A stretch of DNA of 64,000 nt, from positions 226,468 through 290,467 of the forward strand of contig NZ_NEVQ01000017.1 in NCBI RefSeq assembly GCF_002261185.1, given 5' to 3'. The notes beneath the pieces were generated by a model, which saw only the letters and a list, made by a program, of their open reading frames with translations, searched no databases and had not been told where the DNA came from. Shown piece after piece: positions 956-29,939 of this stretch. This DNA comes from Bordetella genomosp. 4 (GTDB taxonomy: Bacteria; Pseudomonadota; Gammaproteobacteria; Burkholderiales; Burkholderiaceae_B). Numbering within the stretch: position 1 is the stretch's first letter; every line of letters begins with the position of its first letter. A program made the position numbers and the translations under genes.

Positions 956-1060
956 TCCTATTGCGCACGTCGGGCAGCGAACCGAGCACCTTTCACGCGG
1001 CCCGACGTGCAGCATATCCCCTGCGACAACGTGGATTTGAAACAATACCGAATCAATCAA

Positions 1061-1081
1061 GTCTTATATAAGATATAAGAC
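1061..1081. promoter_or_regulatory. Palindromic operator upstream of acnB
   Basis: A 21-bp inverted repeat has perfect 8-bp arms GTCTTATA and TATAAGAC around a TAAGA spacer. It ends 80 bp before the acnB start. The same element, differing by one base, lies upstream of acnA at 10733-10753. This is seen directly. That it binds a shared aconitase/TCA regulator is inference, and no candidate regulator gene is in the window. Confidence 0.7.
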
Positions 1082-1161
1082 ACTTGCTCCCACCCCCCTC
1101 CAGCCTCTACAATCGGCCTCGAAGACCCTTCCCGCAACCCGATTTTTATGCAGGCCTATTC

Positions 1162-3753
1162 ATGCTGGAAACGTACCGTCAACATGTTGCCGAGCGCGCT
1201 GCGCTGGGCATCCCCCCGCTGCCGCTGTCGGCTCAACAAACAGCCGACCTGATCGAGCTCCTGAAAAACCCGCCCGCAGGCGAAGCAGACAATCTGCTGG
1301 ATCTGCTGACTCACCGCGTGCCCGCCGGCGTGGATGATGCCGCCAAGGTCAAAGCGTCCTATCTGGCTGCTGTCGCGCTGGGCAAAGAATCGTGTGCCCT
1401 GATCAGCCGGGCCAAAGCAACCGAATTGTTGGGCACCATGTTGGGCGGCTACAACATCGGCCCGCTGATCGAATTGCTGGACGACGCCGAGGTCGGCGCC
1501 ATCGCTGCCGATGCGCTGAAGAAAACCCTGTTGATGTTTGACGCGTTCCATGACGTCAAAGAAAAAGCCGACAAGGGCAATGCCAACGCCAAGGCCGTGC
1601 TGCAAAGCTGGGCCGATGCGGAATGGTTCACCAGCCGTCCCGCACTGCCCGAGAGCCTGACGATCACGGTATTCAAGGTTCCCGGCGAAACCAACACCGA
1701 CGATCTGTCGCCCGCCCCCGATGCCACGACGCGCCCGGATATCCCGATGCACGCGCTGGCCATGCTGAAGAACAAGCGCGACGGCGCAGCGTTCCAACCC
1801 GAGGAAGACGGCAAGCGCGGCCCGGTGCAATTCATCGAATCGCTGAAAGAGAAAGGCCACCTGGTTGCCTACGTGGGCGACGTGGTCGGTACCGGCTCTT
1901 CGCGTAAATCCGCCACCAACTCGGTGCTGTGGTTCACTGGCGAAGACATCCCGTTCGTGCCGAACAAGCGTTTCGGCGGTGTCTGCCTGGGCAGCAAGAT
2001 TGCTCCGATTTTCTACAACACCATGGAAGACGCGGGCGCCCTGCCGATCGAGCTGGACGTCTCCAAGATGGAAATGGGCGACGTGGTGGAACTGCGCCCC
2101 TACGAAGGCAAGGCCCTGAAAGACGGCCAGGTCATCGCTGAATTCCAAGTCAAATCCGACGTGCTGTTTGACGAAGTGCGCGCCGGCGGCCGCATTCCGC
2201 TGATCATCGGCCGCGGCCTGACGGCCAAGGCGCGCGAAGCGCTGGGCCTGCCTCCCTCGACGCTGTTCCGCCTGCCGAAGAACCCGGCCGATTCGGGCAA
2301 GGGTTTTACGCTGGCCCAGAAAATGGTCGGCCGCGCCTGCGGTCTGCCCGAAGGCCAAGGCGTACGCCCGAACACCTACTGCGAACCCCGCATGACGTCG
2401 GTGGGCAGCCAGGACACGACCGGCCCCATGACCCGCGACGAGTTGAAAGATCTGGCTTGCCTGGGTTTTTCCGCGGATCTGGTCATGCAATCGTTCTGCC
2501 ACACGGCAGCCTATCCGAAACCCGTGGACGTCAAGACGCACCACACGCTGCCGCAGTTCATCAGCACGCGTGGCGGTATTTCGCTGCGTCCCGGCGACGG
2601 TGTGATCCACTCGTGGCTCAACCGCATGCTGCTGCCTGACACGGTGGGCACGGGCGGCGACTCGCACACCCGTTTCCCGATCGGGATTTCTTTCCCGGCC
2701 GGCTCGGGTCTGGTGGCGTTCGCTGCTGCGACGGGCGTGATGCCGTTGGATATGCCGGAATCGGTGCTGGTGCGCTTCAAGGGCAAGATGCAGCCCGGCG
2801 TGACGCTGCGCGATCTGGTGAATGCGATTCCGCTGTATGCGATCAAGCAAGGCCTGTTGACTGTGGCCAAGCAAGGCAAGAAGAACATCTTCTCCGGCCG
2901 CATTCTGGAAATCGAAGGCCTGCCCGACCTGAAGGTGGAACAGGCTTTCGAACTGTCCGACGCCTCGGCAGAACGCTCGGCCGCTGGCTGCACGGTGCGC
3001 TTGAACAAAGAACCGATCATCGAGTACATCAACAGCAACATCGTGATGCTGAAGTGGATGATCGCCAATGGCTACGAAGACGAGCGCTCGCTGGGCCGCC
3101 GTATCAAGGCCATGGAAGCCTGGTTGGCTGATCCCAAGCTGCTGGAACCGGATGCCGACGCCGAGTACGCCGCTGTGATCGAGATCGATCTGGCCGACAT
3201 TCACGAGCCCATCGTGGCTTGCCCGAACGACCCGGATGACGTCAAGACATTGTCCGACGTGGCTGGCGCCAAGATCGACGAAGTGTTCATCGGCAGCTGC
3301 ATGACCAACATCGGCCACTTCCGTGCCGCGTCCAAGCTGCTCGAAGGCAAGCGCGATATTCCGGTCAAGCTGTGGGTGGCTCCGCCGACGAAGATGGATG
3401 CGCAACAGCTCACCGAAGAAGGCCACTACGGCGTCTTCGGTACGGCTGGTGCCCGTACGGAGATGCCGGGATGCTCGCTGTGCATGGGTAACCAAGCTCA
3501 GGTGCGCGAAGGTGCGACCGTGATGTCGACCAGCACGCGTAACTTCCCGAATCGTCTGGGCAAGAACACCAACGTGTATCTGGGCTCGGCTGAGCTGGCT
3601 GCGATCTGCTCGCGCCTGGGTCGCATCCCGACCAAGGACGAGTACATGGCAGATATGGGCGTCATCAACAAGAGCGGCGACCAGATCTATCAGTACCTGA
3701 ACTTCGACAAGATCGATGATTACAAGGATGTGGCTGCGGTGATCGAGGTGTAA
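1162..3753 (+). CDS. acnB: Bifunctional aconitate hydratase 2 / 2-methylisocitrate dehydratase (AcnB)
   Basis: Cytosolic [4Fe-4S] aconitase B converts citrate to isocitrate in the TCA cycle and usually also handles 2-methylaconitate/2-methylisocitrate. The ATG at 1162 gives 863 residues, the usual AcnB size, beginning [20 protein letters not shown] at 1084 in the same frame would add 26 unrelated residues and is rejected. The order is typical of AcnB: helical HEAT-like N-terminal domain, swivel domain (about 160-380), then the catalytic domains. Cluster cysteines are visible at 713 ([10 protein letters not shown]) and at 771 and 774 (PGCSLCMGN), close to E. coli AcnB 710, 769 and 772. The upstream palindrome at 1061-1081 is shared with acnA. 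A strong terminator follows the gene. Confidence 0.97.
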
Positions 3754-28999: not shown

Positions 29000-29066
29000 A
29001 TTACCTGGGGTCTTCAGGTCGTCGTGGATATGCGTTTTGTGCTGGAAAGGGACGGAGCATGAGTTC

Positions 29067-29232
29067 TATTGGACGTCGAGGCGGGGCAGTGACCGTGTTG
29101 GCGCTTCACGTGGCCGGTCGGCCGCCTGCGCGGCCGACACCGCTTCCTCAACCTCGTCGCTGCGCTCCTTCGGTTTCCCTCGCTCGGCCACGAGGCGCGC
29201 CAACACGGTCACTGCCCCGCCTCGACTCGCAG
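29067..29232 (+). repeat. Structured palindromic element, copy 1
   Basis: This 166-base element begins TATTGGACGTCGAG and ends CTCGACTCGCAG. It folds as P1, a perfect 30-bp stem (29075-29104 with 29197-29226); a 5x5 internal loop TTCAC/GAGGC; P2, 7 bp (29110-29116 with 29185-29191); and P3, a 9-bp hairpin (29117-29125 with 29130-29138, loop CTGC). A conserved ACCG and a variable arm follow. Copy 2, on the opposite strand at 29691-29868, has the same termini, loop and topology with different but still paired stems. No coding capacity was recognised. Confidence 0.85.
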
Positions 29233-29319
29233 CATCTCGGATCCCCTCGTAGCTGGCACGACTGGTCTTCGTAGGCTTCGTAGCACTGGCGTTTGCAAGG
29301 AGGAAGATCTTGCAGGGCT

Positions 29320-29357
29320 GCTATTCATGGCCGCCTACGGGCGCGGCCATGAATAGC
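29320..29357 (+). repeat. Long hairpin inside inverted composite, copy 1
   Basis: A perfect 15-bp stem (29320-29334 with 29343-29357) starts GCTATTC and ends GAATAGC with an 8-base loop. It is preceded by AAGATCTTGC and followed by a GCATGCG motif. Both flanks recur, inverted, around the hairpin at 29567-29601. No T-tract supports a terminator. Confidence 0.8.
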
Positions 29358-29566
29358 GTTCGGGATCTGCATGCGAAGGGTTTGGCATCGGAGATGAACA
29401 GAAGATCTCTCGAGCTACGATTTCTCATGGACAAGCAGGAATATTTCGAACGACGGCTTCGAGATGTCCAGACAGGGACAATGCATCATCGTCGCAGACA
29501 TCAACTCCAGCCAAGCAGATCTTCCAAATTGGCAACACGCCACCCCGCCGCATGCCCGGACCGATC

Positions 29567-29601
29567 GCTATTCGCGCGTGTGCAGGGCACGCGCGAATAG
29601 C
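29567..29601 (-). repeat. Long hairpin inside inverted composite, copy 2
   Basis: A perfect 14-bp stem (29567-29580 with 29588-29601) shares the outer GCTATTC/GAATAGC with copy 1, but the inner half is different and still fully paired. Read on the minus strand it has the same preceding AAGATCTTGC and following GCATGCG flanks as copy 1. Confidence 0.8.
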
Positions 29602-29690
29602 AGCACCGCAAGATCTTTCTCTTTGCCAATGCGCTCACAAAAAAACGCCAAGCAAGACAACCGTGCCAGCGATGTGATGAGCTTGAATGA

Positions 29691-29868
29691 CTGCGAGTCG
29701 AGCCGAGGCAATCGGGCCGTGCGGGCGCCTCAAAGCCGAGTGGAGCGGATACCGTAGGTAGGCCCGAACGGGCCGGACGAGGTGAGCGAACACGGTGTCC
29801 GGCGCCCGCGCGCCGGACCGGCTTTGTGAAGCCCGCACGGCCCGATTGCCTCGGCTCGACGTCCAATA
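29691..29868 (-). repeat. Structured palindromic element, copy 2 (inverted)
   Basis: This 178-base element is homologous to 29067-29232 but on the opposite strand. On the minus strand it begins TATTGGACGTCGAG and ends CTCGACTCGCAG. P1 is 30 bp (29831-29860 with 29697-29726), P2 is 7 bp (29819-29825 with 29732-29738) and P3 is 9 bp (29797-29805 with 29810-29818, 4-base loop). The internal loop TTCAC/GAGGC and the following ACCG are identical to copy 1. Stem sequences differ from copy 1 at about 17 paired positions, all compensated. Confidence 0.85.
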
Positions 29869-29939
29869 AGCAAACCACCCTCACGCCATCGAAACCTCTG
29901 ACGACATGAGAGAAGCAAGACTATTCAATAGTCGACCAT

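Follow-up and report, generated by a model that had tools for sequence, protein, structure and literature searches.

The closest described systems are the REP, BIME and REPIN repeats. The available text of two accounts (PMC3116915, PMC3733652) presents them as non-autonomous, dispersed repeats with palindromic ends in inverted pairs, and places REPs mostly downstream of genes, with compensated stem changes and predicted ssDNA or mRNA hairpins. REP stems measure 5-13 bp in that text (PMC3733652), and the GI REPIN has 71 bp between its ends (PMC3116915). For Bordetella, the available part of a 2008 account (PMC2267715) reports two intergenic stem-loop families, Bor-1 and Bor-2, the Bor-2 model being 167 nt long with 17 copies. 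BRE, as presented in the available text of PMC3110155, is a betaproteobacterial, GC-rich, usually intergenic repeat that is conserved across species and said to be mobile-like; it is ~90 bp long and stands in tandem, in varying numbers, at some loci.

The locus analysed here lies in a window of 64,000 nt (the whole stretch of DNA that was analysed) from Bordetella genomosp. 4, referred to below as the host. The first-pass annotation described two inverted copies of a palindromic element, at 29067-29232 and 29691-29868, and we confirmed their coordinates, shared ends and internal loops on the sequence. The differences between the two are all compensated on the opposite arm, as had been claimed (counted by eye, 12 of 30 pairs in P1, 3 of 7 in P2 and 2 of 9 in P3). 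Both copies are present, but describing them as two copies was too narrow in scope: they are the inverted arms of one non-coding element of ~800 bp, and each arm has a further hairpin (Table 1).

Architecture and covariation of the element

An arm consists of a P1 stem of 30-35 bp, a conserved core with a predicted three-way junction and, usually, an inner second hairpin (H2). Among host copies, the P1-P1' core measures 152-164 nt per arm. The sequence of P1 differs among subfamilies, yet 94-98% of its pairing is still Watson-Crick. The two window copies fold with z values of -10.08 and -10.12, and none of 200 dinucleotide shuffles of each folds as well. On the outward strand, the hairpin is followed by some tens of bases that are A/C-rich and G/T-poor, as judged from composition by distance averaged over copies, for elements only.

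Table 1. Positions of the element and its parts in the window
Feature	Position	Strand	Remarks
Whole element, two inverted arms	29061..29880	.	Outer limits approximate, set by the end of alignment among 11 own-genome copies and by the flanks of 16 pairs
Arm A, P1-P2-three-way-junction-P1' fold	29075..29226	(-), presumed folded, outward strand	P1 = 29075-29104 with 29197-29226
Arm B, fold as in arm A, P1 different	29697..29860	+, outward strand	P1 = 29697-29726 with 29831-29860
Arm A, conserved inner domain	29105..29196	-	Loop TTCAC/GAGGC, P2, P3/P4 arm, P5 hairpin
Arm B, conserved inner domain	29727..29830	+	
Second hairpin (H2), arm A	29320..29357	-	Stem varies among copies, still paired
Second hairpin (H2), arm B	29567..29601	+	
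Tail past arm B, A/C-rich, G/T-poor	29861..29910	+ (outward)	Mirrored left of arm A; limits guessed from averages over copies

We assessed the fold in an alignment of 31 distinct copies. Its consensus comprises P1, P2, a three-way junction with a P3/P4 arm, and a P5 hairpin, and 40 of the 53 pairs are changed on both sides. The covariation score was 0.568, against 0.141 (sd 0.009) for shuffled and at most 0.094 for slid alignments, and 0 of 500 shuffles reached it; the copies are related and were picked for distinct paired stems, and such scores show effect and are not probabilities. Standard pairs fill 96.7% of the cells, compared with 74.2% after shuffling and at most 45.6% after sliding. 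Where P1 extends further at its outer end, a few rows are shifted by one position. An alignment of 30 copies from a second genus (g4), itself fitted to the model, has 22 of 42 pairs changed on both sides and a score of 0.408 (0.084 shuffled); all 17 modelled P1 pairs are changed on both sides and the core pairs mostly never vary. The margin over the shuffled and slid controls supports the proposal of the first-pass annotation that a folded RNA or DNA element is conserved here, perhaps as a mobile non-coding repeat.

The family had not been recognised by the first-pass annotation, and Rfam agrees. At the gathering score, Rfam 15 reported only two tRNAs elsewhere in the window and nothing in 30 further loci. 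A permissive scan matched microRNA families (best E 4.9e-5, 39.8 bits against a cut-off of 168 bits), and we take these as generic matches to long hairpins. A simple scan of the element region found no promoter, and no intrinsic terminator (a GC-rich hairpin followed directly by a T run) was found between 28950 and 29990 of the window.

Copies, insertion sites and gene context

The host genome holds dozens of copies of the element, many as inverted pairs. The pattern of shared end and loop, with one mismatch allowed, matched the host genome 36 times on the forward and 34 times on the reverse strand, and the reversed control pattern gave no match there; among the 66 pattern matches listed, at least one (contig C16, 229601) looks unrelated. 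In full-length host searches, the best 40 candidates were scored for each window copy, so the copy count is a lower bound. We aligned 11 host pairs over 1.17 kb each: the A and B arms face each other, the middle is conserved also, and each arm has its second hairpin. Near-identical copies are numerous at unrelated places in the host genome. Contig ends often fall within a few hundred bases of a copy (C1, C2, C3, C5, C7, C9, C10, C11, C14, C15, C17, C18 and C21), and several contigs terminate within a copy or close to one; the host assembly is probably interrupted by the repeat. Six parS-like sites (TGTTTCACGTGAAACA, 0-2 mismatches, 0 expected by chance) surround one arm on host contig C21 (L027:1340-2636, ~103.4-104.7 kb), so that this copy may be part of the chromosome-partition region. 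We looked for an autonomous version, with a gene located between its arms, in the wide pair L026/L027 (~2.2 kb) by reading the 7 ORFs of at least 80 aa in L027 by eye, and recognised none.

A query with the inner domain matched 8 of 9 genomes of the genus, the host included, at E < 1e-20, several of them with inverted pairs; the ninth, G004, has only a weak match. The pattern of shared end and loop has a single one-mismatch match in each of G007 and G008, the one in G007 being a copy with another stem (L092). The host and its relatives thus contain further copies, and in almost all that are intact the stems still pair; these are two points on which the first-pass annotation had staked its reading. 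Most of the copies shown from genus relatives carry a stem of their own that pairs. Imperfect copies include L148, whose right arm is broken, L128, which runs into a contig end, and a small number of others that have bulges (e.g., the + copy of L122). A palindromic repeat resembling GGTGTC...GACACC stands inside or beside several copies of genus relatives (L125, L135, L140, L143) and may be BRE or another family.

A covariance-model search of related genomes, which the first-pass annotation had named as a check, detected the family in 67 of 268 genomes of the taxonomic family, across 11 of 43 genera (E up to 1e-3). Only the best 12 candidates per genome were scored, so copy numbers are minima, and a few of the 67 are single borderline matches. 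In a sample of 300 genomes from the order, three match (E up to 1e-4), the host among them and all from the same taxonomic family; the sample includes an unstated share from that family, and its strict filters may lose weak matches. One scan of a contig collection returned 13 single matches in unrelated bacteria, which we take as chance, given how many there are and how they scatter; the window element matched nothing in collections of plasmids and phages. Inverted pairs also occur in genus relatives, in g4 and in genome G013 of genus g6 (three pairs). In g4 we found 30 pairs, with a median of 598 bp between both matches, and 52 of 82 placements with one detected arm only: either the pair is not universal there, or the partner arm has diverged.

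Comparison of orthologous sites indicates that the element inserts. The convergent neighbours of the element in the window, genes for a DUF72 protein and an L-lactate permease, are 940 bp apart; in G007 they are 62 bp apart, and the site is empty. Seven other loci around the DUF72 gene in the genus also hold no element, but neither do they have the lactate permease neighbour within the stretch. The empty G007 site (L290) contains a small hairpin, GGCGACGGCGATG...CATCGCCGTGTC, which is perhaps a bidirectional terminator. In g4, the flank of L174 matches all 43 genomes, and we read the 17 best (identity of at least 80%) as orthologues: 11 hold the element (E up to 1e-6, 2 of them weak) and 6 do not. 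Among these six, L204 retains what looks by eye like a remnant, and L202 is no more than a short piece at a contig end. Another inverted repeat, whose ends are CCGTAGGATGGGTGTAG-like, occupies a site without the element in L201 (G076, ~1060-1290, reverse strand). No target-site duplication was found at fixed positions up to 60 nt outside P1 in 16 host pairs, the same 3-mer being common to at most 3 pairs and the same 4-mer to at most 2.

The gene context was assessed in 83 g4 stretches. Gaps with the element (n = 75) are convergent in 46 cases, tandem in 28 and divergent in 1, compared with 14, 107 and 28 for gaps without it (Fisher p = 4e-16, convergent versus rest); genes were called by an ad hoc GC3 rule, and the comparison gaps are neighbours from the same stretches, unmatched for length. 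The tandem gaps comprise 9 with a pair and 19 with a single arm. In the set of 82 placements, 19 single arms in tandem gaps show no 3'-end preference, 8 facing the end of the upstream gene and 11 the opposite way. The statement that every copy lies between convergent genes was dropped, L174/L189 being tandem.

Stem turnover, mismatch bias and competing explanations

P1 turns over as a unit. The 5' arms of 42 distinct stems share a median identity of 57%. At one orthologous site in g4, compared by eye, the left-end P1 is identical in L189, L191 and L192 and very different in L194 and L200, where the core is kept; the L194 stem equals that of L175, from another genome. P1 therefore acts like an allele that can be replaced as a block, and on these sequence comparisons it is inherited as a subfamily allele. 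Among host copies, compensated P1 states recur in at least two copies and uncompensated ones are singletons, a pattern expected under selection and under copying between arms alike.

Mismatches within the stems differ between strands. We used 209 distinct elements (122 from g4, 62 from the host and 25 from the genus), which gave 157 distinct P1 stems. Counted on the outward strand and once per context, isolated P1 mismatches comprise 50 G.T, 8 A.C and 33 others, beside 4979 Watson-Crick pairs (binomial p = 1.6e-8). Before this count we removed stems in which under 17 of 24 positions pair, adjacent mismatches, repeated contexts and identical stems; unfiltered, the same 157 stems give 99 G.T, 39 A.C and 197 others. 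An earlier, overlapping stem count, turned to the outward strand, gave 21 G.T and 3 A.C, and g4 arms sorted by type give G.T:A.C ratios of 14:2 and 10:0, with 11:2 for untyped arms. In H2, which was detected in 46 of 56 host arms, 24 of 25 genus arms and 41 of 121 g4 arms, the ratios are 7:1, 4:0 and 9:12, respectively. Base composition cannot make this bias, because each G-C pair of a stem offers G>A and C>T equally. Changes outside the stems of host copies lean the same way in the inward region (79:55) and the outer flank (12:2), with 9:9 in the inner domain; the outer flank is C-rich on the outward strand, which may explain its lean, and a mutational share in the strand bias is possible. 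Summed over four host subfamilies, P1 changes run against the bias (9:10), the cause being 8 C>T changes (with 10 transversions) in subfamily A1. In A1, P1 is free of uncompensated changes in all 17 copies that have both arms (two share one compensated pair), and 6 of 23 copies lack the right arm, so we put the A1 excess down to misaligned cut copies. Given the strand-specific excess of G.T, it is probable that either RNA or ssDNA folds as a single strand at both ends of the element. Statistically, either strand keeps its pairing best in its 3' part.

Our preferred explanation is a dispersed, presumably non-autonomous repeat of ~0.8 kb that works like a large REPIN or BIME and whose fold is recognised in single-stranded form; we regard it as evenly poised between right and wrong. 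Such a life is consistent with the 3'-end fold shared by both strands, the scattering of copies, the failure to find target duplications at fixed positions and the location at gene ends. An enzyme of the cell would recognise the single-stranded fold (ssDNA or RNA) at both ends and would copy or move the element, as RAYT enzymes are proposed to move REPINs, and resident copies would then serve as hairpins at the ends of transcripts that read through from one side or the other. Copies may have spread by recombining with one another. Mobilisation by a RAYT in the host was rejected, as the Y1_Tnp/RAYT domain (PF01797) has no match in the host genome (G000) at E up to 1e-3. PF01797 occurs in 6 of the 9 genus genomes and does not track the element: G003 and G007 have the element but lack PF01797, and G004, where the element match is weak at best, carries the domain. 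A bolder form of the preferred explanation, which we consider unlikely, makes this a new class of mobile element defined by structure over sequence, in which both strands have the same folded 3' end, with a three-way junction borne by a regenerated, near-perfect stem that doubles as subfamily tag, and which multiplies by self-primed hairpin copying or reverse transcription of a folded single strand, by means of a novel enzyme.

The main rival is a purely RNA role, in which resident 3'-end, processing or anti-antisense hairpins, acting on transcripts that read through between genes, are selected as RNA and spread by recombination only. The enrichment in convergent gaps of g4 and near absence from divergent ones, the G.T bias on the outward strand and the A/C-rich, G-poor tail, which presumably resembles a Rho loading region, all speak for it. 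We nevertheless find it doubtful: the empty orthologous sites and the near-identical copies scattered over the host genome require a dispersal process, the window around the element lacks the intrinsic-terminator pattern, and in tandem gaps a single arm does not point preferentially to the end of the upstream gene. Arm-to-arm copying (quasi-palindrome correction by template switching), raised by the first-pass annotation, could keep the arms complementary with no selection on folding. Watson-Crick pairing in 1233 of 1260 pairs of the 42 fixed-length stems (4979 of 5314 with stem ends included, in the 157-stem set) agrees with this, as do paired transversions at pair 5 of subfamily B1 in 21 young host copies (C-G 12, A-T 6, G-C 2, C.T 1), pair 17 of host B1 copies (A-T in 19, C-G in 2) and the three compensated and zero uncompensated changes that separate L193 from L192 at the same orthologous end (by eye). 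Copying alone, however, fails to predict the 50:8 ratio of G.T to A.C or the covariation of core helices with conserved unpaired bases, and within the four host subfamilies P1 is more conserved (97.3-99.3% identity) than the adjacent 200 nt (91.3-94.9%). As the sole cause it is therefore quite improbable, while template copying may help to spread compensated states. A double-stranded DNA site (a cruciform, or a binding site for gyrase or a nucleoid protein) would suit a palindrome that lies between genes and can fold on both strands; such a site should count the strands equally, yet the mismatch bias is strand-specific, and this already disfavoured reading is scarcely credible.

Significance and comparison with known systems

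The element is abundant, structured and strongly covarying, and it has no Rfam entry in a bacterial group with many sequenced genomes. Sequence and structure are unusually cleanly separated in it, a 30-bp stem turning over with the fold kept, and the mismatch bias suggests which strand folds. With it one can test directly whether repeats of this kind are mobile as single-stranded folds where a RAYT is lacking, and whether one stem arm templates the other or selection keeps the two matched. Searches of a library of open-licence publications found no description of this element.

MITEs are non-coding, have inverted terminal repeats and occur in many copies, and the element resembles them in all three respects; it differs from MITEs (DDE transposase) in that no target-site duplication was found at fixed positions and its ends are conserved in structure more than in sequence. 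Parvovirus genomes end on either side in a T-shaped palindrome whose stem arms remain complementary. The analogy is one of shape only, with no replicase, linear molecule or sequence relation shown. Integron attC sites, for their part, are defined by conserved core sites with AAC/GTT triplets and an integrase.

The likeness to a REPIN, as far as the available accounts describe it, lies in two palindromes inverted around a spacer, with 30 pairs and 52 single arms in g4. Against the dimensions given in those accounts, the element is large, with a P1-P1' core of 152-164 nt, a predicted three-way junction, stems of ~30 bp and a unit of ~800 bp. The element is not built of short GTAG/CGTC-tagged REP units of 20-40 bp; CGTC overlaps the start of P1 in the window copies, yet the stems there are ~30 bp. 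The host has no RAYT match and RAYT presence in the genus does not parallel the element; lacking that host match, the element is not filed as a REPIN. From BRE, going by the available description, it is set apart by arms of ~150-190 bp that stand singly or in inverted pairs. Bor-1 and Bor-2 come close as intergenic, structured betaproteobacterial repeats, and the 167 nt of Bor-2 approximate the 152-164 nt of one arm. Compared by description only, the available text on Bor-1 and Bor-2 (PMC2267715) contains no inverted pairs, three-way junction or strand bias. Bor-1 and Bor-2 may be relatives of this element.
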